Positions 7,283 to 30,437 of a DNA stretch of 64,000 nucleotides are shown here, in pieces. Under the pieces are notes generated by a model. It searched no databases. It saw nothing but the letters and a program-made list of their open reading frames with translations, and was not told the DNA's origin. The stretch comes from Sphingorhabdus sp. EL138 (GTDB lineage Bacteria > Pseudomonadota > Alphaproteobacteria > Sphingomonadales > Sphingomonadaceae), in the NCBI RefSeq assembly GCF_900258045.1, contig NZ_OGVD01000001.1, forward strand, positions 1 to 64,000. Direction: 5' to 3'. The position numbers and the translations under genes are program-made. Numbering within the stretch: the first letter of the stretch is position 1; each line of letters starts with the position of its first letter.

Positions 7283-7431
7283 AAAAAAATGAGCAGGTGT
7301 TGGGGAAAACACCTGCCCATAGGGAACGTCCGGGGAGGATCGGAGGGAGGGTTCGGGACGCTCCGTCAGAGAGATTTCGGAAACCGGGTTGATCGACTTG
7401 GAACAACTGGTTTTCATCATAATCTGCTCTG
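7283..7431 (-). ncRNA. candidate structured RNA / leader with tandem C-loop hairpins (copy I)
   Basis: On the minus strand, hairpin 1 (7324-7363) has an 8-bp stem GAGCGTCC/GGACGTTC with a C-rich loop containing CCCTCCCTCC and CCTCCCC. Hairpin 2 (7293-7316) has a perfect 9-bp stem GCAGGTGTT/AACACCTGC with loop TTCCCC, and is followed 3 nt later by a T7 run, the form of an intrinsic terminator. A homologous element with the same two-hairpin layout lies at 24077-24219, upstream of cluster II; shared blocks include CAGAGCAGAT, GAAATCTCTCT and CTCCCTCCGAT. Both lie upstream of, and on the same strand as, their clusters. The architecture recalls alphaproteobacterial CCUCCUCCC-loop sRNAs, but homology to them is not shown. 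A small protein-coding frame also crosses copy I but has no clear counterpart in copy II. Confidence 0.5.
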
Positions 7432-7912
7432 AGTGATAGATGGCAGGAAAACAGGAAATTTGATTCTGGAATCCTACAAATTTTAAGTCCTTGCGATTTA
7501 CGAGCAAGAATATTGAATCACTATGGAAATTTACTAGAATTTGTATTGATTTGACGCCAGTCGGACGGGGGTAGTGTTGTTCAAAGCTCGAGCCGAGATG
7601 GTTGAGAATATTGATTCAGTGTCTTTGTTTTTGGGGACATTTCGAAAGCTAATTCTCAAGGCTAGTCGTGTTTAGTTTTGGCGACTTTTTCTTCGAAAAG
7701 CGCGAGATATTGAAATGGAATTCAATCCCGAAACAATTGGAATTGCTTTAGAGGTTTTTGCCAACCTATGAGACCAAATCAGTTAGTGAGAAGAGTCGAA
7801 ATTTGTATCAGAATGCCCTTGGCACTATTCGAGACTAAGAGCTGCTCGAATAATTCTGACATAAAAAAACAGAAACCATTTAGCTCATTCGATAGATTGT
7901 AAGAAGAAGCAC
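7432..7912. other. intergenic, no gene recognised
   Basis: About 480 bases of AT-rich sequence between the hairpin element and a secreted-protein fragment. No convincing coding frame, repeat or RNA was seen. It may hold the promoter for the minus-strand hairpin element. Confidence 0.4.
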
Positions 7913-8110
7913 TTATGCAAGCGACGTTGATGGTAATGCAAGGAGCGATGTCTTCAAGCCAATATTCTGACTAACCCCTTCGTAACGCAAACGCATATCA
8001 GCTAGCGAGTTTATCTGGATCGCACTCTCATCAATGTTTCCGGTGATTGCATATGCAGCCATCGGGGCTGCCATGGCGGCGCAAAATAATAGAGAAACTT
8101 TCCTCATCAT
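7913..8110 (-). pseudogene. secreted-protein fragment (possible outer-membrane porin N-terminus)
   Basis: 65 codons. The first 22 residues form a clear signal peptide (MMRKVSLLFCAAMAAPMAAYA). The following INSLADMRLRYEGVSQ resembles the first beta-strand of sphingomonad porin/alginate-export-type proteins. The frame then stops after about 20 more residues, far short of any porin. Most likely the 5' stub of a deleted gene; a genuine small secreted peptide is less likely. Confidence 0.4.
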
Positions 8111-8487
8111 TTTTTTAACTCACCTCGTTTTCGTCCGATCAAAAACCGAAGGTTCCGAGCGCTGTTATAGAAAAGGACGTGGGGATTAACAGCGTCCAAA
8201 CTGGCATATACGACTTGGAAGTGGCACTATCTAAAGTACAATTGGCATCCCAGGCCGATAGCAATTCCAGTTGTATTCCATATGGCGAAGGGCTCACTAG
8301 ATTCGCGAGTTGTGGGTCGAACGAGCAACAGCATGACATTGGACGAATTCCTTTTTTCTTTCACATTAATCGGCTAAAACTATGGCTAATAATTGGGATT
8401 GATGACATTTTGAATCGGATGAAAACTCTTGAACCCTTTCGAGCGCGGCTTGCATGTTACTAAAAGCCACCCTATTGGGCGCCGCGG
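8111..8487. other. intergenic, no gene recognised
   Basis: About 380 bases. A 94-codon frame on the plus strand lacks a ribosome site and any recognisable domain, so it was not called. On the minus strand just after the small gene at 8488, CCACCC and GGGTGG can pair across the stop codon and are followed by CTTTT, a weak terminator candidate. Confidence 0.35.
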
Positions 8488-8664
8488 CTAAGTGGGGTGG
8501 TCGTTTGTGGACAGGTTGATGGGATTCTCTGACCCGGCTTCTGCCGATTCCGTCGAGTTTTGCTTTTTATCCAATATGTAGAATTGGAAGATTGCCGACA
8601 AAATAAACCCGGCAATCACAAAAGCCGCGGTTTTCCGATTTTCATTTTTATCGGATTGATCCAC
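8488..8664 (-). CDS. small single-pass membrane protein (GTG start)
   Basis: 58 codons beginning at GTG 8664, three bases after the stop of the upstream small membrane gene. Polar N-terminus (DQSDKNENRK), one hydrophobic segment (TAAFVIAGFILSAIFQFYIL, about residues 12-31) and an acidic, Ser/Asn-rich tail. Tight coupling to the upstream gene supports it as the second gene of a two-gene operon. No family recognised. No strong ribosome site, so it probably relies on translational coupling. Confidence 0.45.
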   Translation of the reverse strand: MDQSDKNENRKTAAFVIAGFILSAIFQFYILDKKQNSTESAEAGSENPINLSTNDHPT

Positions 8665-8667
8665 TGT

Positions 8668-8895
8668 TTATATTTTACTTGATTTCGGGGATTTAGCTGG
8701 CTGTAAACTTGCAAATATCAGGACAAATACCATAGCAAACGCTATGATAAAGAATGCCAATTGCAACCACCAAGCAAGTCTTTGATGCTCGTATGAAAAT
8801 GCAAAAATACCATAGATTATAAGGGCGTACCAACAGAACCCGTACGTTCCCATAAATTGCCGGTTATTAAATACGTTGTCGGCGCACATTTTCAT
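8668..8895 (-). CDS. small membrane protein with two transmembrane segments
   Basis: About 75 residues. The start at 8895 is chosen because AAAGGA lies about 8 nt upstream; a longer frame from 8976 has no such site. Two hydrophobic helices (around YGFCWYALIIYGIFAF and WWLQLAFFIIAFAMVFVLIFA) with a basic, Pro/Ser/Lys C-terminus. No family recognised. It is followed by another small membrane protein gene, so the pair may act together at the inner membrane. Confidence 0.5.
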   Translation of the reverse strand: MKMCADNVFNNRQFMGTYGFCWYALIIYGIFAFSYEHQRLAWWLQLAFFIIAFAMVFVLIFASLQPAKSPKSSKI

Positions 8896-9370
8896 GACCT
8901 GTTCCTTTCTTGCTACAGCCCGCCAATTTGGATTCTTAGAACCCGGACACGGTCTACAAAATGGGTGATGCTCCATATTCGGCCCAGAATATTCTAGAAT
9001 TATCTAGCTTTTAGAATCTTGCATGAGCATTTGATGCGTGACTTTTTCGAATACTCCCATCTAGGCCATAATTCGTGCAGCGGATGTCACTTGGGTTAAG
9101 CGGCGATTTGGTATGAGCCAAATGAACATAAGCTCTGGTTCAGATCTGTCTTTGATATTGAAAACCCTGCTCAATAGACCCGATTCAAAGATCCGTCGGA
9201 TGCCGAGAATCTTGAAACATATCAAAATTTGGAAGAATTTTGTAGATAATCTGCCAATCGAGGACATCAATTTGCGGTAATCGTGAATGTGACAGTTCAT
9301 TCTTCAACGCGATTTGATGATCGAGAGTGCTGTTGTGCACCACCATATGATCTTGAAAAAGGAAAAGAAA
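8896..9370. other. intergenic, no gene recognised
   Basis: About 475 bases between divergent genes. Short frames on both strands look random. It should carry the promoters of the small membrane operon (minus) and the rhodanese lipoprotein (plus). Confidence 0.4.
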
Positions 9371-9799
9371 ATGCATCATTTAAAAACAGCAGCAGGAATT
9401 GGCTCTATATTCGCGTTGATGTCTTGCGGTTCTGCGGATTCTCAAACGCAAACCCCTCAGGCTACTGCAAGTCAATCTTCGGTAACTATGGTAAACGTAA
9501 GCACTGCAAAAGCATTATTGGCGCAGGAAAAAGATGCGATACTGATAGACGTCCGCACCCCAGATGAATTTGCTGCCGGCCACATTGAAGGCGCGCAAAA
9601 TTTCGACCTTAGAAACCCGGATTTTGTCAATAAAATTGATAAGCTCGACAAGAATGAACATTATATTGTTTATTGTCGTTCCGGTGTACGTAGCGCCCAA
9701 GCGACTCAAATAATGGATGAACTTGGGTTCTCCAAAATCACTAATGTAGATGGCGGCATTACAGCCTGGATAGAAGCAGATTATCCTGTGGTTTCTTGA
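9371..9799 (+). CDS. rhodanese-like lipoprotein
   Basis: 142 residues from ATG 9371, preceded by AAAGGA at about 8 nt. The N-terminus is a lipoprotein signal with lipobox ALMSC, the lipidated Cys being residue 19. Then comes a low-complexity Gln/Thr/Ser linker and one rhodanese domain (IDVRTPDEFAAGHIEGA). The active-site loop is CRSGVRSA with Cys102. It probably handles persulfide sulfur, or acts as a thiol protein, in the periplasm, anchored to a membrane. A strong hairpin follows the stop codon, so it is likely monocistronic. Confidence 0.85.
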   Translation: MHHLKTAAGIGSIFALMSCGSADSQTQTPQATASQSSVTMVNVSTAKALLAQEKDAILIDVRTPDEFAAGHIEGAQNFDLRNPDFVNKIDKLDKNEHYIVYCRSGVRSAQATQIMDELGFSKITNVDGGITAWIEADYPVVS

Positions 9800-9809
9800 C
9801 GGTTTCGCG

Positions 9810-9842
9810 CCTGCTCGGCTGTGCTGTGAACAGCTGAGCAGG
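9810..9842 (+). terminator. intrinsic terminator-like hairpin after rhodanese gene
   Basis: 13-bp stem CCTGCTCGGCTGT / ACAGCTGAGCAGG with one G-U pair and a 7-nt loop, followed by TGTTTGGG. It begins 11 nt after the stop codon at 9799. Confidence 0.6.
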
Positions 9843-9964
9843 TGTTTGGGGGAGGAGCGGATAGCCGACTATCGTAACGCCATACTCTGCGGTTCCTCCC
9901 ATTCTTCCGATCCGAGAATTTATGAGACACCAAGAAAATTCTTAACACGAGGCCATTGCCGTTT

Positions 9965-11347
9965 TCATTCCTTTAACGGCTTGAGCGAACCCAAAAGAGT
10001 CGGAATAAATTCACTAACGGTCGGATGAATGTGAACGGCACGCTGCAGCGTTGTATAGGGCGCATCGGCGTACATATTAGTAAGGACGCTGTGGATAGCT
10101 TCGTCTCCATTCACACCAAGGATAGAGGCGCCGACAATTTTTTGTGTGTCGTCATCTACTAGGATTTTCATAAAGCCTTGTGTTTCACCGCGCTCCCGCG
10201 CACGTCCGATCTGATCCATCATTATCGTTCCCGTGAGCATGCTGCGTCCCGATGCGCGTGCCTGTTCCTCGGTCATTCCGGCGCGTCCCAACGGTGGATC
10301 GACATATAGGGCATAACAGGGGATACGATCGGTTACTGATCGTTTTTCACCATCCAGAAGATTGGCCGCAACAATTTCATAATCATTGTAGGATGTATGG
10401 GTAAAGGATCCGCGACCATTGCATTCACCTATTGCCCATATTCCCGGCACATTGGTGGAAAGTTGGTCATCGACCGTGATATAGCCATGCTCGTCATGAT
10501 GGATATTCGCCTCGTCCAAACCCAAATCATCGGTATTGGGTGTCCTACCCGTTGCAACGAACAAATGACTGCCGTGTATGGCAGGTGAGCCCTCATCACA
10601 CAGGACATCAGCAACGATTTCATCATGTTTGGATCGAACTGCGGTGCAATTTGCGTTCAAACGAAATTCTATTCCTTCTCGCGCCAATATGTCTCTTACG
10701 GCAGCGGATATATCTGGGTCTTCCCGCCGAATCAGTCGTTCTGACCGCTCGATTACCGTTACCTTACTGCCAAAACGCCGGTAAATCTGGGCAAATTCGA
10801 GACCAATATAACTACCCCCTATGATCACGAGATGTTCGGGTAGTTCATCAATACCCAATATCGTCGCGTTACTATGATAATCGACCGTTTCGAGCCCCTC
10901 TATGTTTGATGTTGAGGCTCTGGCTCCCACATTCAGAAAAATTCGAGGTGCCTGCAAAATATCGCCTTCGACCTCTACCGCATCAGGACCTTTTAGACGT
11001 GCATGGCCGCGAATGACTGTCAGGTTATCCGTTGCCTGCAACCAAGTTGTCAAACCTTGTTGAGACTGGTTTACAATACCATCCATCCGCGCTTTCACTC
11101 GCTTCATATCAACCGATATCTCATCTTCGATCATCACGCCATAATCGCCAGCACGTCGTGCATCATAGGCAACTCGCGCGCTGGCAACGAGCGTCTTCGT
11201 TGGTATGCAACCTGTGTTAACGCAGGTGCCGCCAAGCAATTTTCGTTCGATGAGCGCTGTTTTATATCCATCGGAAGCAAGGCGTGCGGCGAGCGATGGA
11301 CCCGCTTGACCACCACCAATGATAATAGCATCAAATTTGATTTTCAT
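9965..11347 (-). CDS. FAD-dependent pyridine nucleotide-disulfide oxidoreductase (mercuric-reductase-like)
   Basis: 460 residues, the class I flavoprotein disulfide reductase layout: FAD site GGGQAG near residue 11, redox disulfide GGTCVNTGCIPTK (Cys42/Cys47), NAD(P) site GGSYIG and a C-terminal dimerisation domain ending in HIHPTVSEF, whose His serves the partner active site. It lacks the N-terminal metal-binding domain and C-terminal vicinal cysteines of true mercuric reductase, so mercury reduction is not supported. It is also not an obvious lipoamide dehydrogenase or glutathione reductase. Divergent from the carotenoid oxygenase gene, with 279 bases between them. Confidence 0.85.
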   Translation of the reverse strand: MKIKFDAIIIGGGQAGPSLAARLASDGYKTALIERKLLGGTCVNTGCIPTKTLVASARVAYDARRAGDYGVMIEDEISVDMKRVKARMDGIVNQSQQGLTTWLQATDNLTVIRGHARLKGPDAVEVEGDILQAPRIFLNVGARASTSNIEGLETVDYHSNATILGIDELPEHLVIIGGSYIGLEFAQIYRRFGSKVTVIERSERLIRREDPDISAAVRDILAREGIEFRLNANCTAVRSKHDEIVADVLCDEGSPAIHGSHLFVATGRTPNTDDLGLDEANIHHDEHGYITVDDQLSTNVPGIWAIGECNGRGSFTHTSYNDYEIVAANLLDGEKRSVTDRIPCYALYVDPPLGRAGMTEEQARASGRSMLTGTIMMDQIGRARERGETQGFMKILVDDDTQKIVGASILGVNGDEAIHSVLTNMYADAPYTTLQRAVHIHPTVSEFIPTLLGSLKPLKE

Positions 11348-11626
11348 GGTACCTCTGAATATGTACGGAATTTAGGTTCTGCATTAGCAATCCTAGTTAT
11401 TGAACCCTACAGGACAAGTGAAAATCTCAGTAAGATAAGTTATCCTGTATTTATCGAGTTGCCGAGATTACATTCATATTAGTCGTATGCGGGAGTTTGA
11501 TATTTCAGATTCTTGCGCAGGCCATAGATTGTGACGGTTTGGCAATCTTTGGATCTGGTGCGATCATGATTCTGTTGGCCAGCAACACAAGTGATGCCAG
11601 TATTTGAAATAATATAGGATGAACAG

Positions 11627-12958
11627 ATGACGATTTCCGAAACTGCGGCAGACCCGAAACCGTTCTGGCTCAGCGATAATTTTGCTCCGGTTTTTTCAGA
11701 AACGACGGAGCATGAATTGTCAGTTACCCGCACCATTCCAACCGAACTGAAGGGTCGATATTTCCGTAATGGTGCCAATCCTCCATCTGGAAAAAGTGAA
11801 GACTGGTTCCTTGCTTGCGGCATGATTCACGGTGTCGAACTCAATGGCGGAAAAGCTACATGGTATCGTAATCGCTATATCCAGACCCCTTTGCTCGAAG
11901 AAGAGACACCGAGTCAGGAATCGCGGATGAAACTAGAAAACTCCATCGCCAATACGCATATCGTGGGACATGCGGGTAAAATTTTGGCTCTCGCCGAGTT
12001 AAGCCTACCCATTGAGGTCTCAAAAGATCTCGAGACACGCGGGCCCTATACGTTCGGCGGCAAGCTTAATGCCAATATGACGGCCCATCCCAAAATATGT
12101 CCGATAACCGGCGAGATGTTATTCTTTGGATATAGCTTCATGCCGCCTTTTCTGACCTACCACCGGGCATCAGCTTCTGGAGAGCTTATTCAAACCGAGG
12201 TGATTGACGTCAAAGGCGGCACCATGGCCCATGATTTCAATATCACAGAAAACTATGTGATATTCATGGACCTACCCATTGTCTTTGACATGAAGCTAAG
12301 AATGGAAGGCGGTCTTGGTATCAGGTTTGACGATGAATATGGCGCTCGACTAGGTATCATGCCGCGCAATGGCAACAGCGAAGATGTGATCTGGTTCGAG
12401 ATCGACCCTTGCTACATTTATCACACCATGAACGCTTATGAGGATGGTGATGAGGTTGTTCTGGATGGCTGCCGGTTGGTTGGGTATATGACTGAAGGTA
12501 TGGTCAAGCCGCCGTTGCCTAAGCTTTATCAGTGGCGAATGAACCTGAAAACCGGGGCGGTTACCGAACGGCAGATAGACGATTTGGGAGTGGATTTTCC
12601 TAGAGTTCCGGACAGCAAGGTCGGACAGCCCTATCGCTATGGATATACGGCCGAATTCGGTCAGGATACACCGACGGTAGTTGCCTTTCATAAATATGAC
12701 ATGCCGACGGGAAATAAAACTTCACACCATCTGAAAAACGGACGCACCGGGAGCGAAGCTGTTTTCGTCCCTGCAGCGAACGGCACATCAGAGGATGACG
12801 GATATTTGATGAGCTATGTTTACGATCCGGCTGCAGACAAAAGTGATCTGATAATCTTGGATGCAAAAAACATAGAAAACGATCCTATCGCGGTAATTCA
12901 CTTACCAGCGAGAGTTCCCGCCGGCTTTCACGGCAGCTGGATTGCCGATTCCGAATAA
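11627..12958 (+). CDS. carotenoid oxygenase / lignostilbene dioxygenase family protein
   Basis: 443 residues. Non-haem iron enzyme of the family that splits C=C bonds in carotenoids, stilbenes or phenylpropenes. The four iron-binding histidines are visible: His154 (MTAHPK), His202 (MAHDF), His266 (YHTMNA) and His435 (FHGSW). RYFRNGANPP near residue 45 is the usual N-terminal propeller motif. No signal peptide, so cytosolic. The start at 11627 has AGGATGA upstream. Followed by a member of the REP-like palindrome family at 13048. Confidence 0.9.
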   Translation: MTISETAADPKPFWLSDNFAPVFSETTEHELSVTRTIPTELKGRYFRNGANPPSGKSEDWFLACGMIHGVELNGGKATWYRNRYIQTPLLEEETPSQESRMKLENSIANTHIVGHAGKILALAELSLPIEVSKDLETRGPYTFGGKLNANMTAHPKICPITGEMLFFGYSFMPPFLTYHRASASGELIQTEVIDVKGGTMAHDFNITENYVIFMDLPIVFDMKLRMEGGLGIRFDDEYGARLGIMPRNGNSEDVIWFEIDPCYIYHTMNAYEDGDEVVLDGCRLVGYMTEGMVKPPLPKLYQWRMNLKTGAVTERQIDDLGVDFPRVPDSKVGQPYRYGYTAEFGQDTPTVVAFHKYDMPTGNKTSHHLKNGRTGSEAVFVPAANGTSEDDGYLMSYVYDPAADKSDLIILDAKNIENDPIAVIHLPARVPAGFHGSWIADSE

Positions 12959-13047
12959 GGTCCCGTTATTTAGGCTCGATATAAGATAACTTTTGTAGAT
13001 GGCTGGGAACTAGTCGAATCGAAAAGGCCGATTATGGCGCCTCACAA

Positions 13048-13073
13048 TGTCCGCTTTCGGGATAAAGCGGACA
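13048..13073. repeat. REP-like palindrome, copy 1
   Basis: TGTCCGCTTT, six-base loop, AAAGCGGACA: a perfect inverted repeat. Related copies lie at 14140, 17062 and 17501, each shortly after a gene. The core TCCGCTTTCGGGAT is shared by all four. Confidence 0.75.
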
Positions 13074-13225
13074 CAACGCTAAAGTCTACTAAGGGTGCAG
13101 AAGCAGATGTTAGAAATCAGTTCATTGTCACCGAAGTCACTGTCCGTTTCCTATTGAATTATGCACAATCCCTCCAATAATGAAGCAAGTTGCGAACACC
13201 AAACAATAAACTATGATCGATAGCC

Positions 13226-14131
13226 ATGTGGCGATCGCATTTTGTTGTACTGGGTGAGGAACCTTCCGAGAATAATCTTGCACGGGTTAAAGACGGGTAT
13301 CAGCTTTTTCGCGAGACTCGCACCAGCCTATACTATCTAGCCGCACACAGTAAGCCGCTGGCGCGGCGTCCGGACTTCGGGCAATTTCTGGATCGGAAAA
13401 TCTTGCAAAAGATCGATGCATCTTTTCTGGAACGCTTTTTGTCCGGAGAAAGTGGTGCGGTAGACGTTAAGAATCATGAAGTAAACTTCGACCTTATTCA
13501 ATGCGCAGCGACATTGTCGAAGCAGCTTCAAATGCATGTTTTGGCGGCTGAAGATACTGATGACGAATATGGTATGGCAGTCGGTGTGGGGAACGGTGCA
13601 GTCACATATTTGCGCTTCAAAACAATGCTCAAGGAATCACCGGAAGATAAAGGAGCGGTTGAAGTTGTCTACACATCTGAGATTGGCTTCTCGATTGACC
13701 GTGAACCTGCCGATGATGCTTATGGTGTTGCGCAAAAAGCTATTGACGAAGTGTACGGCGAATCTGAGTTGAACCTATACAATTACAGTGACGCTAAGCC
13801 CACTCGCGCAGAAGCTAGGAAGCATACAGCCGCCAGCAAGCTATCGGTCCAAGCTTATCTCGACAGCTATGGGGTGTTTAAGCGCCTCAGCCATGCACCG
13901 CCGCAACTCACCACTCTTGAACGAATTTTAAGACCCTTTCAATTTCTGATGTCAGCGATTTTCATCCCTTTCTTGTTTGTTGGCATGATGATTTATGTGA
14001 TGATCTATGCAGGGAAACAGGATGTCGATCAGGACCCAAGTCCTTCGAAGTTGGGCTTGATTGGCCTAATAGTATTGGCGTTTCCCCTTTGGTTTTTGGT
14101 TTGGCTGGTGCGGAAGATATTGGGATATTGA
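13226..14131 (+). CDS. uncharacterised protein with C-terminal membrane anchor
   Basis: 301 residues, family not recognised. The soluble N-terminal part (about 1-225) is mixed alpha/beta with no clear motif. Two hydrophobic helices follow (FQFLMSAIFIPFLFVGMMIY and LGLIGLIVLAFPLWFLVWLV) with a short basic tail, so the soluble part likely faces the cytoplasm. No signal peptide. No strong ribosome site at ATG 13226, so the start is uncertain. It lies between two copies of the REP-like repeat and is probably transcribed alone. Confidence 0.6.
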   Translation: MWRSHFVVLGEEPSENNLARVKDGYQLFRETRTSLYYLAAHSKPLARRPDFGQFLDRKILQKIDASFLERFLSGESGAVDVKNHEVNFDLIQCAATLSKQLQMHVLAAEDTDDEYGMAVGVGNGAVTYLRFKTMLKESPEDKGAVEVVYTSEIGFSIDREPADDAYGVAQKAIDEVYGESELNLYNYSDAKPTRAEARKHTAASKLSVQAYLDSYGVFKRLSHAPPQLTTLERILRPFQFLMSAIFIPFLFVGMMIYVMIYAGKQDVDQDPSPSKLGLIGLIVLAFPLWFLVWLVRKILGY

Positions 14132-14139
14132 TCCGAAAC

Positions 14140-14162
14140 GTCCGCTTTCGGGATGAAGCAGC
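14140..14162. repeat. REP-like palindrome, copy 2 (degenerate right arm)
   Basis: GTCCGCTTTCGGGATGAAGC followed by AG in place of the expected GGAC. It starts nine bases after the preceding stop codon. A downstream stretch ending AAAAGCAGACATTAA looks like a further partial unit. Confidence 0.65.
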
Positions 14163-14229
14163 CAGCGACCGCTATGGGCGCAAAAGCAGACATTAACCTT
14201 TCGTAGCCAGTCGTCGCCCTATATTTTGC

Positions 14230-15369: not shown

Positions 15370-15403
15370 CGCGGAGCACCCATTATTCAGATTAAGGATA
15401 GAT

Positions 15404-16094: not shown

Positions 16095-17004
16095 CGCTGC
16101 CGCCATGGGCGTATGCGCGGAAGAACGCATAGCCGTCGTTGAGATTGCCGACGCAATTGAAACAAGGTACGTTCTGGAATCGAACGCAAAAATAAGCGCC
16201 GAAACTTTGCGAAGGAAAAACTTGCTCGGAACATATGATGAGCATTGTGAAGATGGCGTAGCTTTCGCAGATTTTCTGACACGACATCTCCGGGAAGTAA
16301 CCGGTGACAAGCATTTCTATGTGGAATTTACAGCTGGCCCAAACAACTCGGACGGCGAAGATTGGGTTGCCGAATGGCGCAAAGAAGCCGCATCAAATGC
16401 ATTTGGGGTAAAACATGTTGAACGGTTCGAGGGTAATATTGCCTATTTGGCTCTCTCGAGTTTTTACGAATATGAGCCCGCCGAACGAGCATTGGCGAGC
16501 GCGTTCGAGCTTTTGTCGACCAGCGATGCAGCAATTGTTGACTTGCGAGGAAATGGTGGGGGATCTCCGGAGACTGCTTGGCCAATCGAATGGACATTCA
16601 AAGAGGCCAACAACCCTATTCAGCGTAAAATGGAAACCCGAGTCAGTGAGCCAGAAAAATTGGAAGAACCCAGTTTGAGCTGGCCAAGATACGGTGCCAA
16701 ACGACCGTTGGTCATTCTGATGAACAAATCTAGCTTCTCCGCATCTGAAGCCGTTGCATATGGATTGCAGGCTGAGGGGAGAGCCATCATTATAGGAGAG
16801 CGCAGCGGCGGCGGCGCGCACATGCTGGGTGATGGAGTATCGGTAACTGGCGGATGGAAAATAGGTATTCCCGAAACGCGACCGGTTAACCGCATCACCG
16901 GTACAAATTGGGAAGATGAAGGCGTTGTCCCCGATGTGGAAGTTTCGTCAGACAAGGCATTGGCACGTGCTTTGGTCTATTTACGAGGCAAGCTTTCGAA
17001 CTAG
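16069..17004 (+). CDS. S41-family peptidase (tail-specific/IRBP-like), exported
   Basis: 311 residues. A short N-terminal signal peptide (about residues 1-17, ending GVCA). The protease core has DLRGNGGGS around residue 158 and the nucleophile region SSFSASEAV with probable catalytic Ser224. ERSGGGAH and the terminal EGVVPDVEV are also family features. No PDZ domain is evident, as in IRBP-like members. Overlap with the MarR gene and divergence from an exported serine hydrolase suggest a small cell-envelope module under MarR control. Confidence 0.8.
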   Translation: MIMQTLIISAAAMGVCAEERIAVVEIADAIETRYVLESNAKISAETLRRKNLLGTYDEHCEDGVAFADFLTRHLREVTGDKHFYVEFTAGPNNSDGEDWVAEWRKEAASNAFGVKHVERFEGNIAYLALSSFYEYEPAERALASAFELLSTSDAAIVDLRGNGGGSPETAWPIEWTFKEANNPIQRKMETRVSEPEKLEEPSLSWPRYGAKRPLVILMNKSSFSASEAVAYGLQAEGRAIIIGERSGGGAHMLGDGVSVTGGWKIGIPETRPVNRITGTNWEDEGVVPDVEVSSDKALARALVYLRGKLSN

Positions 17005-17061
17005 CTTTAGGCAGGCTGGTTTCCCGAAGTGCTGACAAAAGCGATGGCACTGACAAACCAA

Positions 17062-17087
17062 TGTCCGCTTTCGGGATGTTGCAGACA
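17062..17087. repeat. REP-like palindrome, copy 3
   Basis: TGTCCGCTTTCGGGATGTTGCAGACA: the outer arms and core match the other copies, the inner right arm is diverged. It lies between the protease stop (17004) and the next gene. Confidence 0.7.
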
Positions 17088-17112
17088 TAGAAAAACGTAG
17101 TAAGCTCTCCAA

Positions 17113-17496
17113 ATGGCCATTTACAAACGAAATGCCGTATTTCCAGATTGGGAACCGGTTCCATGGACTAAGGTTTGGAGCGCCGCTGATCGGCAGGAAG
17201 AAGGATTCCACGAACGTGCTCTCAAACAAATTGCTTGGCAAAAAATTCGTTGGGAAGATTTACCTGAAGGCGGGATATTTGGACATCAAAAGGACTGGTT
17301 ACAGTCAAAGGATATAAGCCATTTCACAACTCTAAACGGTGAAGACTTGTTCTTGATAGACAATACCTGGTTTGGGTTCCCTGATCCTCCGAGATGGGGC
17401 TTAGTATCTCGTCTCCCTGTTCAGAATGAGTTGCCTTGGCAGCATTGGGGGCATTTTCCTGATTTACCGACCGCGTGGCAACTAGAAGTCCAATAG
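17113..17496 (+). CDS. uncharacterised small protein
   Basis: 127 residues, unusually rich in Trp, Pro and Asp, with no signal peptide or membrane helix. The frame ends just before a REP-like repeat. No domain recognised. The composition looks like a folded globular protein rather than a random frame. Confidence 0.55.
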   Translation: MAIYKRNAVFPDWEPVPWTKVWSAADRQEEGFHERALKQIAWQKIRWEDLPEGGIFGHQKDWLQSKDISHFTTLNGEDLFLIDNTWFGFPDPPRWGLVSRLPVQNELPWQHWGHFPDLPTAWQLEVQ

Positions 17497-17500
17497 CTAG

Positions 17501-17527
17501 TATCCGCTTTCGGGATGAAGCGGACAC
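17501..17527. repeat. REP-like palindrome, copy 4
   Basis: TATCCGCTTTCGGGATGAAGCGGACAC. The symmetry extends outward to CTAG on both sides, making this the longest palindrome of the set. It lies between the convergent genes ending at 17496 and 17569 and could act as a bidirectional terminator. Confidence 0.75.
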
Positions 17528-17568
17528 TAGCTTGTGCGCTCGGCGATCCGATTGAGGTGGCGAGGTTT

Positions 17569-17877
17569 TTATTTGCCGTTCAACCAAGCCGCATGTTCTG
17601 CTGATCTTGCGATATCTATATCGACGCGATTCAGATACATGATTGTCCAACCACGTTCGCCCCATTTGTTGGGAACCGGCTCAAAACAACTGGGATACAT
17701 TTCGCATCGTAGCTCCTGCTCTTCTGGAAGGAATAGCAGATTCACCGTGGTTTTTTCTGGTGCTAAGGTTGCAAAATTTCGTTTTACCTTAAAGGCTGCT
17801 CGATCAAAATGAGGTTTCTCCGTCACACCGTCCATCGATAGTGCTATTTTCCGTAACTCTGAATCCAATATTGTCAT
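17569..17877 (-). CDS. MmcQ/YjbR-family protein
   Basis: 102 residues. Family features include an early LSMDGVTEKPHFDRAAFKV segment, a central strand pair and the terminal WTIMYLNRVD..ARSAEHAAW. The fold is CyaY-like; family members are annotated as DNA-binding, but the role is not well established. No signal peptide. Convergent with the gene at 17113, with a REP palindrome between them. Confidence 0.8.
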   Translation of the reverse strand: MTILDSELRKIALSMDGVTEKPHFDRAAFKVKRNFATLAPEKTTVNLLFLPEEQELRCEMYPSCFEPVPNKWGERGWTIMYLNRVDIDIARSAEHAAWLNGK

Positions 17878-18334
17878 TATTGGTTTTTCCTGATGCCCAC
17901 TTTTCGAATTCGAAATCGCTATACATCTGTCCGTCTAATTCGCCGAAACCCCACCAAACAGTATATCGATCAGATCATTTGCCAACTGATCGTTGAGTGG
18001 CTCATGCCCAGCGAGTACAGCATATGCCGGCTTTAGGCGGCAGAAATTGACAACGAAAAGGCAAAAATATTGAGTTCAAAGTGACTGTGCATATTGGCTT
18101 GAACCATCAATGTGATGATCGCCAATTTCTATGGCTGCAGCTCTAATTCGCGGACTGAATTATGGGACTTTCAGCCAGAGAAACGTCACCAGATCGGCGC
18201 AGGTCATTCGCTCATGACAATAACTTGATACTTCAAATTACATGCAAGATGTTTCCGTTGAGCAGGGTTAAAGCATCTAACTCAGGAGTTATTGCTGGTA
18301 GGCAGTGAACAGAATGCGAAAGAGGAATACTCTC
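17878..18334. other. intergenic, no gene recognised
   Basis: About 457 bases, AT-rich, with stops in all frames. No repeat or RNA recognised. It may be a remnant of lost genes. Confidence 0.4.
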
Positions 18335-18481
18335 ATGGCGACGCAAAATAGAAAAAGAAAACCAAGAAAGGTCACATTGGCGGCAGCAATTTCTGCGTTG
18401 TCAGTTACAACCATTTTTCCCCGTTTGATCAACGATAGTAAGACTAACAAATTGGACCCAGCAAGTTTCCAATCAGGCTAA
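18335..18481 (+). CDS. possible small basic membrane or secreted peptide
   Basis: 48 codons with a good ribosome site (AGAGGA about 8 nt upstream). The N-terminus is strongly basic (QNRKRKPRKV), followed by one hydrophobic stretch (TLAAAISALSVTTIF) and a polar tail. The charge pattern fits a signal anchor. No homologue recognised; it could be a 5' stub of a lost gene. Confidence 0.3.
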   Translation: MATQNRKRKPRKVTLAAAISALSVTTIFPRLINDSKTNKLDPASFQSG

Positions 18482-18622
18482 GCCTCGTCAAGTAAAAGTG
18501 GCTGAAACGGGTCGGTTAATAATCACTGCTGGATTGTTTCTATCCATTAAGCATTTAGCCAAATTAGGAATAGTACAGCTCGTGCGTATTTCAAAGTTTT
18601 AAACAAAGATAAAGTCTTGAAA

Positions 18623-18865
18623 ATGAAGCGAAATCACACCGTATATCTATCGGGTTTGCTGGGGCTTATCTTAAGCGCCTTAATCCAATTTCACGCTCCT
18701 ATACGTGAATACCGCGTTATGCCTCCGCCTCTCGTGGATGGACATCAGGTTGCTCCTATTAGCCCCCAACAAAACCGAACTGAGAGATCCAATGCTCCCA
18801 ACCGTAATATCGATAATGCACGACGAGATCGAAATAGCGAAAATAACATTCCAAAACACTTCTAG
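18623..18865 (+). CDS. possible small secreted proline/asparagine-rich protein
   Basis: 80 codons from ATG 18623. The hydrophobic N-terminus (TVYLSGLLGLILSALIQF) is followed by a Pro-rich stretch and an Arg/Asn-rich tail. No clear ribosome site and no known family. The sequence around it appears decayed, so this could equally be a chance frame. Confidence 0.25.
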   Translation: MKRNHTVYLSGLLGLILSALIQFHAPIREYRVMPPPLVDGHQVAPISPQQNRTERSNAPNRNIDNARRDRNSENNIPKHF

Positions 18866-19093
18866 TTCCAGCGCAATGATTATCGCCATCATAGCGGACC
18901 TTGTAATCAAAATTTCTCAAAGGGTGTTTAGGTGACACAATTAACGCACTCCGAACAATATTATTCAAGAGCAAGTATTTGATACAACTAACAACACCTT
19001 GAAATACCTCTAATTGGAGAAGCTTTATCATGGTATTCAGCATCTACGGAATCCCCCAATAGATGTCGGAACATTAAAGAAAGAAGAAACGCC

Positions 19094-19792
19094 ATGACAA
19101 CAGGAAACGATCAGAAACGAATTTTGTTAGTAATGTCCTCTGTAGACGAAATGGGTATTAGCGGTAAGCAGACGGGAACCTGGTTTACCGAATTAGCTGC
19201 GCCATATTATATTTTAACCGAAGCCGGTTACGAAGTAGTATTTGCTTCTCACGACGGCGGAAATGTACCCATTGACCTCCTTAGTATGAAAGCTCCATAT
19301 ACCACAGAATATACCGAACGCTTCTCAAACGACCCTGTCGCCCTATATGCTGCACAAAAAACCCGCAAGCTTTCCAATGTTGATCATGACACATTCGATG
19401 CTCTGTTCTTCCCCGGCGGATATGGGTTGTTGTGGGATCTGGTATCAAGTTCTCATGCCATTAAAATGATTCGTGAATTTTACGAATCCGAAAGGCCAAT
19501 TGCAATGGTCTGTCACGGGCCGGCTATTCTAAGAGATGTTAAAAAGTCTGACGGTGAATATCTGGTTAAAGGCCTCAATCTCACGGGCTTCAAAAATGAC
19601 GAAGACAGTGAAATTGAACTTTTGCATCATCTTCTCTTTTCGTTGGAAGATGAGTTAAAAGCGCGCGGCGCCAACTATGTTAGTATTACCAATTGGGAAC
19701 CGCATGTTGTTGAGGATGGGCCACTTTTGACCGGTCAAAGCCCGGCATCTGCAGTACCTCTTGCGCAGGCACTTTCTAAACGCCTCAGTTAG
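19094..19792 (+). CDS. DJ-1/PfpI-family protein (Hsp31-like)
   Basis: 232 residues with the class I glutamine-amidotransferase-like fold. The nucleophile elbow is AMVCHGPA with Cys140 and His141, and Glu33 (FTELAAP) is the conserved acid, as in Hsp31/YajL-type proteins. The longer form, with the insertion after PGGYGLLWDL, fits Hsp31-like chaperones or glyoxalase III proteins. Cytosolic. A hairpin follows the stop codon and a metallo-hydrolase gene lies about 150 bases downstream on the same strand. Confidence 0.85.
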   Translation: MTTGNDQKRILLVMSSVDEMGISGKQTGTWFTELAAPYYILTEAGYEVVFASHDGGNVPIDLLSMKAPYTTEYTERFSNDPVALYAAQKTRKLSNVDHDTFDALFFPGGYGLLWDLVSSSHAIKMIREFYESERPIAMVCHGPAILRDVKKSDGEYLVKGLNLTGFKNDEDSEIELLHHLLFSLEDELKARGANYVSITNWEPHVVEDGPLLTGQSPASAVPLAQALSKRLS

Positions 19793-19806
19793 AAAAATAC
19801 TGTTAG

Positions 19807-19834
19807 CGCCGGATCTTTGAAATGACATCCGGCG
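19807..19834 (+). terminator. hairpin after DJ-1/PfpI gene
   Basis: Perfect 8-bp stem CGCCGGAT / ATCCGGCG with a 12-nt loop, 14 nt after the stop codon. No T-run follows, so its role as a terminator is tentative. Confidence 0.4.
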
Positions 19835-19945
19835 ACGATAGCAATACCCATTCCGTATTACCGCATGCGGATTCGAAATCTCTAAAGCATGAGAAGGTTG
19901 GTAGATTTCTCAAATCACCAATCAACAGATAAGAAAGAGCATCTC

Positions 19946-20938
19946 ATGAAATTAACAGCAGAGCAAAGCTTGATTGAAGTTGACCATATCGAAATTTTGG
20001 TTTTGATTGACAATCAAACAGACAGCCTTTCGAGCACGCCGGATAATTTCCGGTCAGAGTGGAGCAACCTACATAAGGCAGGAATGAGTCAGTTAAGTGG
20101 CAGCTGCCAATGTTGCGCTAATCACGGGCTTGCACTTTTGGTAAAGGCTTATTCAGGCGATAAAGCCCACACAGTGCTATTTGATGCAGGTCCAGTTGAC
20201 TTTGCAGTGGAGTATAATTCTACTCGTTTAGGTGCGCGATTGGAAGAGGTTGAAGCCGTTGTACTTTCGCATGGCCATTGGGACCATGCTGGCGGTTTGT
20301 TACAAGCTCTCGATCTTATACAGGCTGCTGAAGAAAAACCTGAACTGCCGGTATATTTGCATCCTGAAATGTTTCGTCAAAGAGCTCTGCCTATGCCAAA
20401 TGAAGGGCTCCTTCCAATCAAAGATATCCCGAATCCACAAGATATTGAACACCATCACGGAACGCCGGTTATTACTGATCAATCCGCAGCCTTTCTAGAC
20501 AACATGTTTTATGTCAGTGGAGAAATCCCTAGGATTACATCCTATGAACAAGGATTCCCAGGGCACATGCGCAGATCAGTGGATGGTACCGAATGGGAAC
20601 CTGACCCTTTGATTATGGACGAGCGCTATTTTGCGGTAAATGTGCGCGGGAAAGGATTAGTGGTATTTTCGGCATGCTCCCACGCGGGCATCGTAAACGT
20701 CATGCATGCTGCACGGAATGATTTTCCAGATTCTAGTCTTCATGCGTTAATGGGCGGCTTTCATTTGTCAGGCGGAAACGAAAAGATCATTGAACAAACC
20801 GTCGACGATTTTGGTCAATTTGATGTAGACCTAATCTTGCCTGGACATTGCACGGGTTGGCGCGCCGTCAATAGTCTGGAGCAGGAATTTGGAGACAAGG
20901 TCGTCCCGACAGCCGTCGGAATGTCGATAACGATCTAG
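19946..20938 (+). CDS. metallo-beta-lactamase-fold hydrolase
   Basis: 330 residues from ATG 19946, chosen for the AAAGAG site about 6 nt upstream; an in-frame start at 19889 is less likely. The zinc-binding motif SHGHWDHAGG (His109, His111, Asp113, His114) is intact, and further ligands sit in CSHAG and GGFHLSGG. The pattern matches the subgroup annotated as dihydropterin-phosphate-synthase-like metallo-hydrolases. A CxxC-like CQCC segment lies near residue 54. Cytosolic. It may share transcription with the DJ-1/PfpI gene upstream. Substrate unknown. Confidence 0.8.
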   Translation: MKLTAEQSLIEVDHIEILVLIDNQTDSLSSTPDNFRSEWSNLHKAGMSQLSGSCQCCANHGLALLVKAYSGDKAHTVLFDAGPVDFAVEYNSTRLGARLEEVEAVVLSHGHWDHAGGLLQALDLIQAAEEKPELPVYLHPEMFRQRALPMPNEGLLPIKDIPNPQDIEHHHGTPVITDQSAAFLDNMFYVSGEIPRITSYEQGFPGHMRRSVDGTEWEPDPLIMDERYFAVNVRGKGLVVFSACSHAGIVNVMHAARNDFPDSSLHALMGGFHLSGGNEKIIEQTVDDFGQFDVDLILPGHCTGWRAVNSLEQEFGDKVVPTAVGMSITI

Positions 20939-21109
20939 AGTCCAAAGTCCCATGTTCCATATTTTGCTTCCGCAGAATAAAATTACTTCGTCGACCTTCA
21001 CTAACAGCACACTCTCTGCCAACGCCACAATTCTAGGATTTCAATTGGAAAATTATATTGTACTTTATTCGATCGACCCATTGCCATCCTTATATTGAAA
21101 GGACCTACC

Positions 21110-21678
21110 TCAATCTCTCACGTCAATATTGGTCGGGCGTAAATGGTGCCTATTGGTCAAGGACAATGTTTGATCGAATTCGCCAATTGCGCCAGTCAAC
21201 ATCAATGCTGCCAGCGCCTCACAGCGCAGAACACCGCCAAAGCCATCCGACAACAGAAAATCCGTCACTAATAGGGACATTTCATTATATCCGTTAAATG
21301 GTCCATTATTATGTATTGGACCATCCAATAAAATTTTTGGAGAAAGTTAGTCAACGAATCGATCCTTAAATGGCGGATCGAAGCCCACGTATAGCATTTC
21401 ACCGATACGCTCCGCTTGGTAAGTTACATCAACCCCTTCAGGCATAAAAACCACAGCTTTTTCGTCAACACTAAAAGAATGAGGTTTTAATCTCAGGTTC
21501 TTCCATGACCTCGAGACGGAGTAAGATTGATAAAAATGGCATCATATGTTGTTACCATTTCAACTTCGACATCTCTCTGCTCCGACCACCAACCGAACAA
21601 GAAACCATCACCTTCCCATCGCCTAGAGGATGATTGATTGGCCGTCTCTTTCTTCATTGCAGACTTCTCAACCCTCAA
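21110..21678 (-). pseudogene. decayed AraC-family regulator
   Basis: Three minus-strand fragments in order match the N-terminal and central parts of the regulator at 1793-2695. SSSRRWEGDGFLFGWW (from 21678) corresponds to KKRWQSDDLVIGWM. FSVDEKAVVFMPEGV..ERIGEMLYVGFDPPFKDRFVD (about 21348-21480) corresponds to FSRDRGDFSFTPKGF..ADLFYIAFGSRLKDQYL. FLLSDGFGGVLRCEALAALML (21110-21328) corresponds to FLVSDGFGGTLRAEALASLLL. Frameshifts and stops separate them, and the DNA-binding domain is missing. Confidence 0.7.
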
Positions 21679-22076
21679 ATATTATCAGGTCCTCAGTTTG
21701 ATATCCCATTCTTCTGCGCTAAGTTAACATAACTAACAAATTAGCAAACTACCAACTGAGAGGTTAGCTGTGCGGATTTAGTCCAGAAACTCGGCATCCT
21801 CCGATCATACAGTCAATCCAGATTAGAAATTCACTATCATCAACCATTCAGAACTGACGCCTTACGAAAACTTAGATACTATCTCCTTCAGTTCAAATCT
21901 GAAACTCACTGGAATTCAAAAAGTGAACTTTTTGTAATCCGCTCTCCGTAATCTAATAAAGCCGTTGAATTTTGGAATAAAGCGTTCTGGAAACAAGCTA
22001 ACTACAAATGATGTCAATGGACATCGGTCCATTGACTAAGCCTAGCTTCATTCAATTCTAATTTAAGGAAATATAG
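21679..22076. other. intergenic upstream of bufferin gene
   Basis: About 400 AT-rich bases without a coding frame of note. A purine-rich TTTAAGGAAATATAG just before 22077 supplies the ribosome site of the next gene. Confidence 0.4.
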
Positions 22077-22364
22077 ATGAACAACTCCAAGACTATCACC
22101 GCACTTGCTGCCACACTTGCTGCTACGGCGGCCTTGTCGCTAACTTCAAATGTGGCTCATGCTGCCGGCGCAAAAGAAAAATGCTTCGGTATCTCGCTCG
22201 CCGGAAAAAATGACTGTGCTGCTGGACCTGGTACGAGTTGCGCTGGCACCTCTACGATAAATTATCAGGGTAACGCTTGGACTTACACAAACAAGGGTAG
22301 CTGCGTAGCCAAAGGCGGGACTTTGAAAGCTCACAAAGGAAACGCAAAACCAATTCCAAAATGA
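22077..22364 (+). CDS. bufA1: DUF2282/BufA1-type bufferin precursor (copper-binding RiPP)
   Basis: 95 residues. Signal peptide of about 30 residues ending VAHAA, then a short Cys-rich core with four cysteines (36, 47, 55, 76) in EKCFG, NDCAAG, TSCAG and GSCVA. This is the DUF2282 pattern, whose members were described as bufferins: periplasmic copper-buffering peptides with modified cysteines. Maturation normally needs a DUF692 protein (BufB) and a DUF2063-type partner (BufC) encoded next door, often with a DoxX protein. None lies within several kb here, so this copy is an orphan. A strong hairpin ends the transcript. The next gene encodes Dps, consistent with a metal/oxidative-stress context. 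Confidence 0.8.
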
Positions 22365-22372
22365 GCCATCGG

Positions 22373-22405
22373 CAATGCCTGCTATCGACAAAATAGCAGG
22401 CATTG
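22373..22405 (+). terminator. intrinsic terminator of bufferin gene
   Basis: Perfect 13-bp stem CAATGCCTGCTAT / ATAGCAGGCATTG with a 7-nt loop, followed by the pyrimidine-rich TCTTTCTCTC. It starts 8 nt after the stop codon. Confidence 0.75.
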
Positions 22406-22768
22406 TCTTTCTCTCAACTCGATATCTGCTGCAAAATTGAATCTGCTTCTCTAGATTTTAAAACCAACACATGAGCATTTGAACAAACTGATCTGATTTC
22501 CGCTATGATGCGGGTTTTTCCTCTCAATCTCACATGACGGATTTGTTTCGAGAGATTTTGGGCACAACGCCATCAAAATACCGCTAATACTCAAGAAGAG
22601 TTGTACCTAAAATGACACCCGGAAACGAGTGCGCAACTGTCTTTCAGAGCATGGCAAGATTACAATAACCACGGCATTCTAAAAGCATCATTAAGCAGGA
22701 AGCGTAAACAAAACGCAATCAAACAAAAAGTGCTTTCAAAAATGACTTTGTCAAAGTGGAGATATCGG
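22406..22768. other. intergenic upstream of dps
   Basis: About 360 bases with no gene recognised. It presumably carries the dps promoter. A frame starting at 22730 is in phase with dps but has a poor ribosome site. Confidence 0.4.
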
Positions 22769-23248
22769 ATGTACAAAACAAATAACACTCTTTCTCATAA
22801 TATCAGAACGGCTTCGATCGAACTTTTGCAGGAACGGTTATTTGACGGATGCGATCTGATGACACAAACAAAACAAGCGCATTGGAATGTCAAAGGCCCG
22901 AACTTCATTGCTTTGCACGAGCTATTTGATCGAATACACTCTCAAGTAGACGGTTATGTTGACCTCATTGCGGAACGTATCGTGGCGCTCGGTGGTCAAG
23001 CAAATGGCACTGTCCGCAGTGCTGCTGAATTTTCGTCATTGCCCGAATATCCTCTCGGCTCACAGGAGCAAGTAGATCATGTCGAAAGCTTGTCTAATGC
23101 TTTGGCAGTCTTTGGAGACAAGATCCGTCATGCGATTGATGTAGCCGCCGATATGGACGACCAGAATTCGTCCGATATATTTACCGAAATTTCTCGCGGG
23201 ATAGATAAATCTTTATGGTTTGTCGAAGCCCATAACCAGCAAAACTGA
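22769..23248 (+). CDS. dps: Dps-type ferritin-like DNA-protection protein
   Basis: 159 residues from ATG 22769, chosen for the GGAG site about 8 nt upstream. The ferroxidase centre signature of Dps is present: QTKQAHWNVKGPNF with His38, then LHELFDRIHSQVDGYVDLIAER supplying the second His and the acidic ligands that bridge subunits. It forms dodecamers that oxidise and store iron and guard DNA from peroxide. The N-terminal tail is short. The upstream bufferin gene suggests a shared metal-stress theme, but a terminator separates them. Confidence 0.9.
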   Translation: MYKTNNTLSHNIRTASIELLQERLFDGCDLMTQTKQAHWNVKGPNFIALHELFDRIHSQVDGYVDLIAERIVALGGQANGTVRSAAEFSSLPEYPLGSQEQVDHVESLSNALAVFGDKIRHAIDVAADMDDQNSSDIFTEISRGIDKSLWFVEAHNQQN

Positions 23249-23295
23249 GTCTAAGCACGCGAGTTCCATAACAGCCCAGTAAAAAGGATCGTAGA

Positions 23296-23763
23296 ATGAA
23301 AATGCAAAAAATCGCCATCGCCGCTACCGCCATCTGTCTTCTTACGGCAAGTGGAGCCAGTTTGTTGGCTAAATCAGTTAAGCCATCAGAAATCAAGGTA
23401 ACGGACCGAGTTATACCCGAAGAACAGCGACAATTTGACCCAGGCTTTCCAGGCAATGATGCTATTACATTTGCTGTTGCTTATGGTGATCGTTCCACTG
23501 GTGCTCATGGTACTTATGGGAGTTTTCCAGCCAATTTTGAAACGCCTGAACATACCCACACCCATGATTATCGTGCGATTGTGTTGAAAGGTCAGATGAC
23601 GAACCCTTTTCAAGGGGATAAAAATGCTCCGATACTGAACCCCGGTTCATATTGGGAAGTACCTGCAGGAAGCGTCCATACAACTGCCTGCGTATCCGAT
23701 ACGCCATGCGAGTTTTACATGTACGGTGATCATTCATTCGATTTCAAGCCTACCAAGAATTGA
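23296..23763 (+). CDS. secreted cupin protein (DUF4437-like)
   Basis: 155 residues. Signal peptide of about 25 residues (ending SLLA), then a single cupin domain with HTHTHDYRAIVLKG as the first metal-binding motif and GSYWEVPAGSVHTTAC as the second. Two cysteines (TACVSDTPCEF) may form a disulfide in the periplasm. AAAGGA precedes the ATG. It follows dps by about 50 bases on the same strand and may be co-transcribed. Substrate not predictable. Confidence 0.75.
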   Translation: MKMQKIAIAATAICLLTASGASLLAKSVKPSEIKVTDRVIPEEQRQFDPGFPGNDAITFAVAYGDRSTGAHGTYGSFPANFETPEHTHTHDYRAIVLKGQMTNPFQGDKNAPILNPGSYWEVPAGSVHTTACVSDTPCEFYMYGDHSFDFKPTKN

Positions 23764-24076
23764 CGGTTCGCGCCAAGCATCAATAGCCTTTCGATAATGT
23801 TGTGATTCTAAGCCTTTGCTACGGCATCGATGTTCACAAGCCAGTATTATCAGCAACCCTCAAGTGATTATGAAGGTATCCACAAATGATCCGAAAACAA
23901 ATTGGAGATAGAACAAGATCATTCTCAAACCAGCAGATTAAGCCTTTGTCGATGTATTGCGCGGCAGTCTGAACTTGGCATCCAACGTTTTACGCGTTCA
24001 AGAAATGTGAATGGCAACAATCTGAAATTCATATAATCCAGAATAAAAATAAAAGATTATCGATCATATAACCCTT
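23764..24076. other. intergenic, no gene recognised
   Basis: About 310 AT-rich bases between the cupin gene and the hairpin element. Nothing recognised; a promoter for the element would be expected near the right end. Confidence 0.35.
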
Positions 24077-24219
24077 CAGAGCAGATAATTGAAAAAGGAC
24101 AACTTGATTGCACAGTCCAGATTTTGAAATCTCTCTATAGGCGACCAAAATATCTCCCTCCGATGCTTCTTGGTCGTCCAATATGGGCAGATGTCCCCCA
24201 CCCCCGTACATCTGCCCAT
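24077..24219 (+). ncRNA. candidate structured RNA / leader with tandem C-loop hairpins (copy II)
   Basis: Homologous to the minus-strand element at 7283-7431. Hairpin 1 (24142-24176) has a 7-bp stem CGACCAA/TTGGTCG with CTCCCTCCG in the loop. Hairpin 2 (24183-24219) has a perfect 12-bp stem ATGGGCAGATGT/ACATCTGCCCAT with loop CCCCCACCCCCGT. Loop sequences are C-rich in both copies although the stems differ, so structure and loop composition appear conserved. Unlike copy I, no T-run follows hairpin 2. It lies about 450 bases upstream of the hydrolase on the same strand. It could be an sRNA, a leader or an attenuator. Confidence 0.5.
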
Positions 24220-30432: not shown

Positions 30433-30437
30433 AGGCG

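Follow-up and report, generated by a model that had tools for sequence, protein, structure and literature searches.

A conserved, structured RNA element is well supported in two copies within the 64,000-nt stretch analysed here (the window: positions 1 to 64,000, forward strand, of contig NZ_OGVD01000001.1 of Sphingorhabdus sp. EL138). The two elements are homologous and look like old copies of one small regulatory RNA gene. The main new result is the order of the parts at the locus, namely a 20-nt site, the RNA, a terminator, the site again and then a gene; this suggests the arrangement that would be expected where a single regulator controls both an RNA gene and a gene cluster. The coordinates, strands and three shared blocks given for the elements in an earlier note on this DNA were confirmed, CAGAGCAGAT, GAAATCTCTCT and CTCCCTCCGAT being exact in both copies. 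The 5' end of the element is CAGAG in each (positions 7431 and 24077).

7283..7431, minus strand: element I (copy I), 149 nt, with hairpin 1, hairpin 2, a terminator hairpin and T7
24077..24219, plus strand: element II (copy II), 143 nt, with the same three hairpins, followed by TTT only and no U-tract

R1, a covariance model for which copy I was the sole input, scored copy II at 58 bits, with E values of 2.4e-13 in the window and 1.4e-11 in its own 3.66-Mb genome. The next-best match in the window (15.2 bits) is copy I's own terminator palindrome in the reverse direction, all others being lower, and no third copy was retrieved from the same genome, either with R1 at E 1 or with the model R2 at E 10. 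Local alignment of the two elements gave a score of 94 against a mean of 23.4 for shuffled sequences, none of 500 shuffles scoring as high, and both elements fold better than their shuffles (z -5.47 for copy I and -4.22 for copy II).

Each element had previously been described as a pair of hairpins with C-rich loops and changed stem sequences. Three stem-loops were found instead, CAGAGCAGAT and ATCTCTCT being the two arms of a first hairpin that had been omitted.

7367..7431, minus strand: hairpin 1 of copy I, its stem agreeing with that of copy II in 19 of 21 columns
24077..24136, plus strand: hairpin 1 of copy II, from folding
7323..7364, minus strand: hairpin 2 of copy I, its loop containing CTCCCTCCGAT, with three doubly changed pairs relative to copy II
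24140..24178, plus strand: hairpin 2 of copy II, its loop containing CTCCCTCCGAT
7283..7320, minus strand: intrinsic terminator of copy I, a 13-pair stem followed by TTTTTTT
24183..24219, plus strand: terminator-like last hairpin of copy II, with a C-rich loop and then TTT only

According to the folding, CAGAGCAGAU is paired with AUCUCUCU in the stem of hairpin 1, and the strong last hairpin has the form AUGGGCAG(G/A)UGU...ACA(C/U)CUGC(U/C)CAU. Hairpin 2 carries the CUCCCUCCGAU loop, with an 11-nt loop core that is the same in both copies and with 3 of 9 stem pairs doubly changed; the loop stretch CUCCCUCC belongs to the RNA of the element. The description of the loops as C-rich holds for hairpin 2 of copy I (15 C out of 24), but copy II is only moderately so (8 out of 21), and the loops of the last hairpin (TTCCCC and CCCCCACCCCCGT) are C-rich and cannot be aligned. 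By itself, C-richness of the loops is nothing special in the window, because G- and A-rich loops are equally frequent: among its 155 strong hairpins, counted on both strands, loops with at least 50% of a single base numbered 13 for C, 13 for G and 14 for A.

As to the changed stems, the description stood for hairpin 2, with its three compensated pairs, and for the last hairpin, with one, but not for hairpin 1, whose stem is kept in sequence and in which the comparison of the two copies revealed no covariation. In the structure-based alignment A4, which was fitted to the structure of copy I and is hence biased towards it, pairing holds in 93.8% of 64 cells; doubly changed yet still pairing are 4 of 32 pairs, against 0 or 1 with slid partners. 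When the changed stem positions of hairpins 2 and 3 were randomised in 100,000 runs, the observed pairing was matched in 0.04% of them and the double changes in 0.065%; including hairpin 1 gave 0.15% (pairs kept) and 0.072% (double changes) over the same number of runs. Covariation support from only two sequences should be regarded as good but not overwhelming.

The neighbouring genes provide a measure of the divergence between the copies. Over the paralogous cupin, AraC and hydrolase genes, the two clusters agree at 245 of 544 aligned third codon positions (45%), as compared with 89 identical columns out of 131 (68%) in the element (Fisher P 2.4e-6, run with 244/544). When the intergenic regions were aligned with MAFFT, identity was 62% in the element and 38-51% in the flanking segments. 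Both the excess over third positions and the lower identity of the flanks indicate that the element was held while silent sites drifted.

A short coding RNA, with the blocks conserved as codons, is a very improbable explanation of this conservation. It could draw on one frame, the best-scoring frame pair (55), in which 14 codons from CTCCCTCCG towards the terminator are alike (LPPILPGRSLWAGV and LPPMLLGRPIWADV) and in which 6 of the 10 base changes, counted by hand, fall on third positions. The conserved peptide was nevertheless rejected, as the GAAATCTCTCT-CTCCCTCCGAT spacing differs by one base between the copies, the gaps of A4 (1, 11, 2, 2, 2 and 6 bases) are in five cases out of six no multiple of three, and no start codon is common to both copies, two frames opening with unrelated TTG codons. 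No Shine-Dalgarno (SD) sequence with an ATG is common to them either. The conserved peptide frame that the earlier note had named as evidence to the contrary is therefore largely missing, apart from the 14 similar codons, and the element is probably non-coding, with some residual doubt.

Conservation extends upstream of the elements, and a 20-nt site occurs there and again downstream.

7459..7501, minus strand: conserved block upstream of copy I, which includes site 1 and CCAGAATCAAA starting at -38 from the 5' end of the element
24007..24048, plus strand: conserved block before copy II, from local alignment with the copy I block
7479-7498, minus strand: site 1 of copy I, AATCGCAAGGACTTAAAATT
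24010-24029, plus strand: site 1 of copy II, AATGGCAACAATCTGAAATT
7110-7129, minus strand: site 2 of copy I, AATCGCAGGAATCCAAAATT, lying after the terminator and ahead of the cupin start
24355-24374, plus strand: site 2 of copy II, TATCGCAAGAATCTGGAATT, between the last hairpin and ATGGAG

The upstream block (about 43 nt) lies at equal distance from CAGAG in both copies, and site 1 ends 48 nt ahead of the element in both. Alignment of the last 80 nt upstream scored 32 against a shuffled mean of 19.4, a score that 3 of 500 shuffles reached. A pattern built from the three remaining sites picked out site 2 of copy II with two mismatches, one of two places that it matched at this level; a downstream alignment made without any pattern likewise pairs the two site 2 sequences, with a score of 55 against a shuffled mean of 31.3 and no shuffle out of 500 as high. 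Once the pattern was widened to all four sites, its exact matches in the genome were five, these four and one inside a coding sequence that we take to be ptsP. At the other end of the element, copy I closes with the terminal hairpin and T7 as had been claimed, and the terminator scan calls it.

These features would be accommodated by an RNA gene controlled together with its cluster, a reading to which we give about an even chance. Each element would be a gene for a small RNA (sRNA) about 145 nt long, with a promoter of its own immediately ahead of CAGAG, the putative start, and with the last hairpin as its end. Both the site about 48 nt upstream and the second one, ahead of the cluster's first gene, would be bound by a single regulator, for which the AraC-type protein of cluster I is the simplest candidate, and RNA and cluster would thereby be made together. 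The RNA may then act in trans on messenger RNAs (mRNAs) through unpaired bases that are conserved, above all those in the hairpin 2 loop CUCCCUCCGAU.

Several observations weigh against such a reading. The significance of the upstream alignment depends on the length taken, since 69 of 500 shuffles were as high with 150 nt versus 3 of 500 with 80 nt. The number of exact genome matches is a statement of rarity and no independent proof, because the pattern derives from the sites themselves; in its loose form the pattern is common, with 203 genome matches at up to three mismatches versus 52 for the reversed pattern, and with 13 matches in the window versus 6.6 expected. No sigma-70-like promoter was found by the scan at the proposed start of either copy. 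Copy II continues with TTTCC after its last hairpin, without a U-tract, and this hairpin is beyond the reach of the terminator scan regardless, the loop limit of the scan being 8. The covariation is thin with two sequences, 14 to 32 of 500 shuffles attaining the observed values, and with the changed positions held fixed P for pairing is 0.054-0.055. Also the gene clusters are partly decayed. Finally, when the loops were paired with 48 start regions, which come from the window only and mostly from the longest open reading frames (ORFs), some starts thus being wrong, shuffles paired as low as loop I in 153 of 200 cases, as loop II in 40 of 200 and as the loop core in 136 of 200.

Between the two possibilities raised by the earlier note, an sRNA or a leader, the independent sRNA is favoured because of the upstream block at fixed distance, the terminator of copy I and the second site before the downstream gene. 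That the elements are cis-acting leaders or attenuators, whose hairpins would govern read-through as part of the cluster's 5' untranslated region, is the first of two serious rival readings but seems rather doubtful. Their location on the same strand and upstream, at a similar spacing from the end of the last hairpin to ATGGAG (250 nt in copy I and 232 nt in copy II), would suit a leader, and a terminator inside a leader has the look of an attenuator. Moreover, the hairpin 2 loop can pair with the 5' arm of the terminator (-10.2 and -10.5 kcal/mol in the two copies), and hairpin 2 of copy I is displaced for a short while as the transcript grows. However, shuffled loops pair as low in 660 and 105 of 1000 cases, and the terminator prevails when the whole sequence is folded; attenuation through this pairing, the one tested, was rejected since shuffled loops equal it. 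Furthermore, the upstream site is repeated between terminator and gene, as for a second promoter, and copy II, having no U-tract, would hardly attenuate.

The other serious rival, likewise unlikely, is that the elements are relics or features acting at the DNA level: remains of a duplicated regulatory region with an RNA that has ceased to matter, or hairpins whose only role is to end transcription coming from upstream. The decay of the surroundings would agree with this, AraC II having two stops, cupin I lacking its N-terminus and a hydrolase fragment lying beside a transposase-type gene, as would the want of any credible homologue elsewhere and of a U-tract in copy II. On the other hand, an identity of 68% in the element versus 45% at third positions, together with compensated stems, needs long selection after the copies parted.

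For pairing of the C-rich loops with SD sequences, as suggested in the earlier note, the support is only circumstantial: CCUCCUCCC is in neither element and there is no excess pairing with the 48 start regions of the window. The core of the hairpin 2 loop does hold CCUCC, which is able to pair with GGAGG. For the eight cluster starts, the best duplex ranked about sixth of 50, with no control. The best single duplex among the 50 starts, at the start of an amine oxidase ORF (45292; -16.4 kcal/mol), had no control of its own and was set aside.

A separate hairpin on the strand of element II bears on the same idea.

28192..28244, plus strand: hairpin behind the isochorismatase gene of cluster II, 17 pairs, loop CUCUCCUCCUCCCUAAC with exact CCUCCUCCC

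This hairpin, AUGCGGCCCGGCC CUCUCCUCCUCCCUAAC GGCCGGGUCGCAU, lies 31 nt behind the isochorismatase gene and contains, at 28214-28222, the sole CCTCCTCCC of the window (0.18 expected; 17 of 100 shuffles have one). CCTCC loops occur in 3 of the 155 strong hairpins, namely this one and hairpin 2 of each element. It has neither a U-tract nor an Rfam match and scores only 12.6 bits with R2. It is a better anti-SD candidate than the elements, possibly a third RNA of the same functional sort, and lends some circumstantial support to the pairing of loops with SD sequences. As place and loop alone tie it to the elements, the standing of the readings above is unchanged.

The cluster copies reported downstream of the elements are real paralogues on the corresponding strands, although rearranged, with protein identities between clusters I and II of 55% for the cupin, 59% for AraC and 82% for the alpha/beta hydrolase.

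6526..7038, minus strand: cupin (ChrR-like) of cluster I, first gene after copy I, beginning at the conserved ATGGAG
2873..3796, minus strand: AraC-type regulator of cluster I, intact, candidate reader of the sites
24452..24454, plus strand: ATG of the conserved ATGGAGT after copy II, a putative start codon
24673..25641, plus strand: alpha/beta hydrolase of cluster II, start picked by the preceding AAGGAAG
25665..26342, plus strand: cupin (ChrR-like) of cluster II, full length
26496..27134, plus strand: AraC-type paralogue of cluster II, its frame broken by one TGA and one TAG

Residues 28-170 of cupin I match residues 83-225 of cupin II, the first 82 residues of the paralogue being missing; judged by this alignment, the N-terminus of cupin I is lost or replaced. 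The AraC protein of cluster I was found in only 1 of 397 genomes of the family, its own (E 1e-50), and had no match in plasmids at 1e-30. The cupin is widespread, being present in 34 of the 397 genomes, its own included (E 1e-25), and in 177 plasmid records (1e-20). Since AraC and the element are rare and the cupin is widespread, these distributions fit an import of the cluster together with its RNA from outside the sampled genomes.

Other features of the window are recorded here as observed. An integrase-core (transposase-type) gene at 74-1528 (plus) adjoins an N-terminally shortened hydrolase copy, and an inverted 323-nt copy of 26-348 (80%) is located 42 kb away at 42132-42454 (minus). Four palindromic copies of approximately TGTCCGCTTTCGGGATAAAGCGGACA (13045-13073, 14136-14164, 17059-17087 and 17498-17526), each behind a plus-strand ORF, may be terminators or a repeat family. 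Genes for type IV secretion and conjugation occupy 30000-42000, with plasmid relatives in Sphingomonas, Sphingobium and their relatives (about 73% identity for the best two); the 684-kb contig that carries them may be chromosomal and the region is perhaps an integrated conjugative element.

A covariance search of sphingomonad genomes, as the earlier note had advised, was run with R1 and R2 in the genus (32 genomes each) and with R2 in the family (397), the order (396) and the class (111). The own genome was included and the sets overlap; those above 40 genomes were searched with stricter filters, by which a diverged relative could be missed. Beyond the two copies no credible homologue was retrieved in these sets. 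The strongest of the weak matches were G359 (23.1 bits, E 0.0035), G489 (22.9 bits, E 0.0034) and G099 (17.6 bits, E 0.099), five more in the genus (G023, G024, G026, G028 and G029) having E 0.1 or worse; they were discounted because an E of 0.003 is expected by chance across hundreds of genomes. G489 and G099 match hairpin 1 only, and G359, aligned over the whole model, is without the CTCCCTCC core and many pairs; all three were rejected. The pattern AATCTCTCTN{12,26}CTCCCTCCGA occurred in 17 stretches of the genome contigs, R2 matching none of these up to E 1, and was absent from the viral contigs.

By BLAST against plasmids, copy I gave one match at E 0.07 and copy II none. In the genus, copy I gave matches in 21 of 32 genomes at E<=1 (best foreign E 9.3e-4), with many fragments falling on positions 34-62, the loop of hairpin 1. 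Twelve such places, when aligned, had flanks unlike the element and, three related places apart, unlike each other; three with listed ORFs lay in or at ordinary coding sequence, and R1 gave these hairpin 1 loop places at most 19.3 bits, on hairpin 1 only. We take such fragments as chance. Following the neighbouring genes was equally negative: at 30 cupin loci (from 37 places in the family, with 1,500 bases read on each side, so that a farther element would escape) the only element was the own one, and the same held for 8 out of 30 loci of the hydrolase. Neither G029, of the same genus, in which cupin and hydrolase (77% identical) stand side by side, nor two annotated plasmid regions with the cupin carried an element. 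In Rfam, which holds a suhB model, the elements had no match at gathering score and only weaker ones below threshold.

The earlier proposal of a new family thus fits, there being no gathering match in Rfam and no credible homologue elsewhere in the genomes searched. The claim of novelty is limited to Rfam having no such family; the literature was consulted on known anti-SD and sphingomonad sRNAs, not on this locus. More tentatively, the elements might represent a new family of sRNAs moving along with an accessory cluster and its AraC regulator, RNA and cluster being switched on by the same duplicated operator, the CUCCCUCCGAU loop adjusting host mRNAs and the CCUCCUCCC hairpin being a further part, the whole forming a feed-forward module spread by horizontal transfer. 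If this were true, it would be an RNA family without an Rfam relative, with a structure kept while third positions in the neighbours fell to 45%, and would illustrate clearly how an accessory gene cluster and an sRNA can be acquired jointly and share their control. It would also make exact predictions: a start at CAGAG, an end at 7283 and a shared operator.

Among known RNAs, the Rfam families Chlorobi-1 (RF01696) and Atu_C7 (RF02501) have a GCAGGUGU-type hairpin in common with the last hairpin of the elements, but Chlorobi-1 reaches only 12.8 and 18.1 against a gathering score of 50, on the opposite strand, and Atu_C7 13.9 against 45, in copy I only. Closer in design are the anti-SD sRNAs of Rhizobiales and Rhodobacter (RFMSmelA075, RFMSmelA099 and RS0680a), which have three to four hairpins, each loop with CCUCCUCCC, and variable stems (PMC3927594). 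The elements share with them the several stem-loops, the combination in hairpin 2 of a conserved pyrimidine-rich loop with a variable stem, and the presence of multiple copies. They differ in being without CCUCCUCCC, to which hairpin 1 offers no counterpart, in the conserved stem of hairpin 1, and in showing no excess pairing with the start regions of the window; the exact anti-SD loop motif is found in the neighbouring hairpin at 28192-28244 and not in the elements.

An sRNA beside the control of a catabolic cluster has a precedent in SuhB of Sphingopyxis granuli TFA, described as a trans-encoded RNA of 61 nt that acts on the 5' untranslated region of the mRNA of the regulator gene thnR and is highly conserved in its genus (PMC6563040). 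The length and high conservation of SuhB set it apart from the elements; the suhB family gave no match at gathering score in the window and is not among the Rfam matches of either element up to E 5. CcsR1-4 of Rhodobacter sphaeroides are homologous sRNA copies processed from a transcript common with ccaF1 (PMC8307010). The elements resemble them in being several homologous copies, but seem to have an upstream block of their own, no family-level search for ccaF1 having been made here. Seen beside these systems, the RNA described here is a new family of a kind already known.

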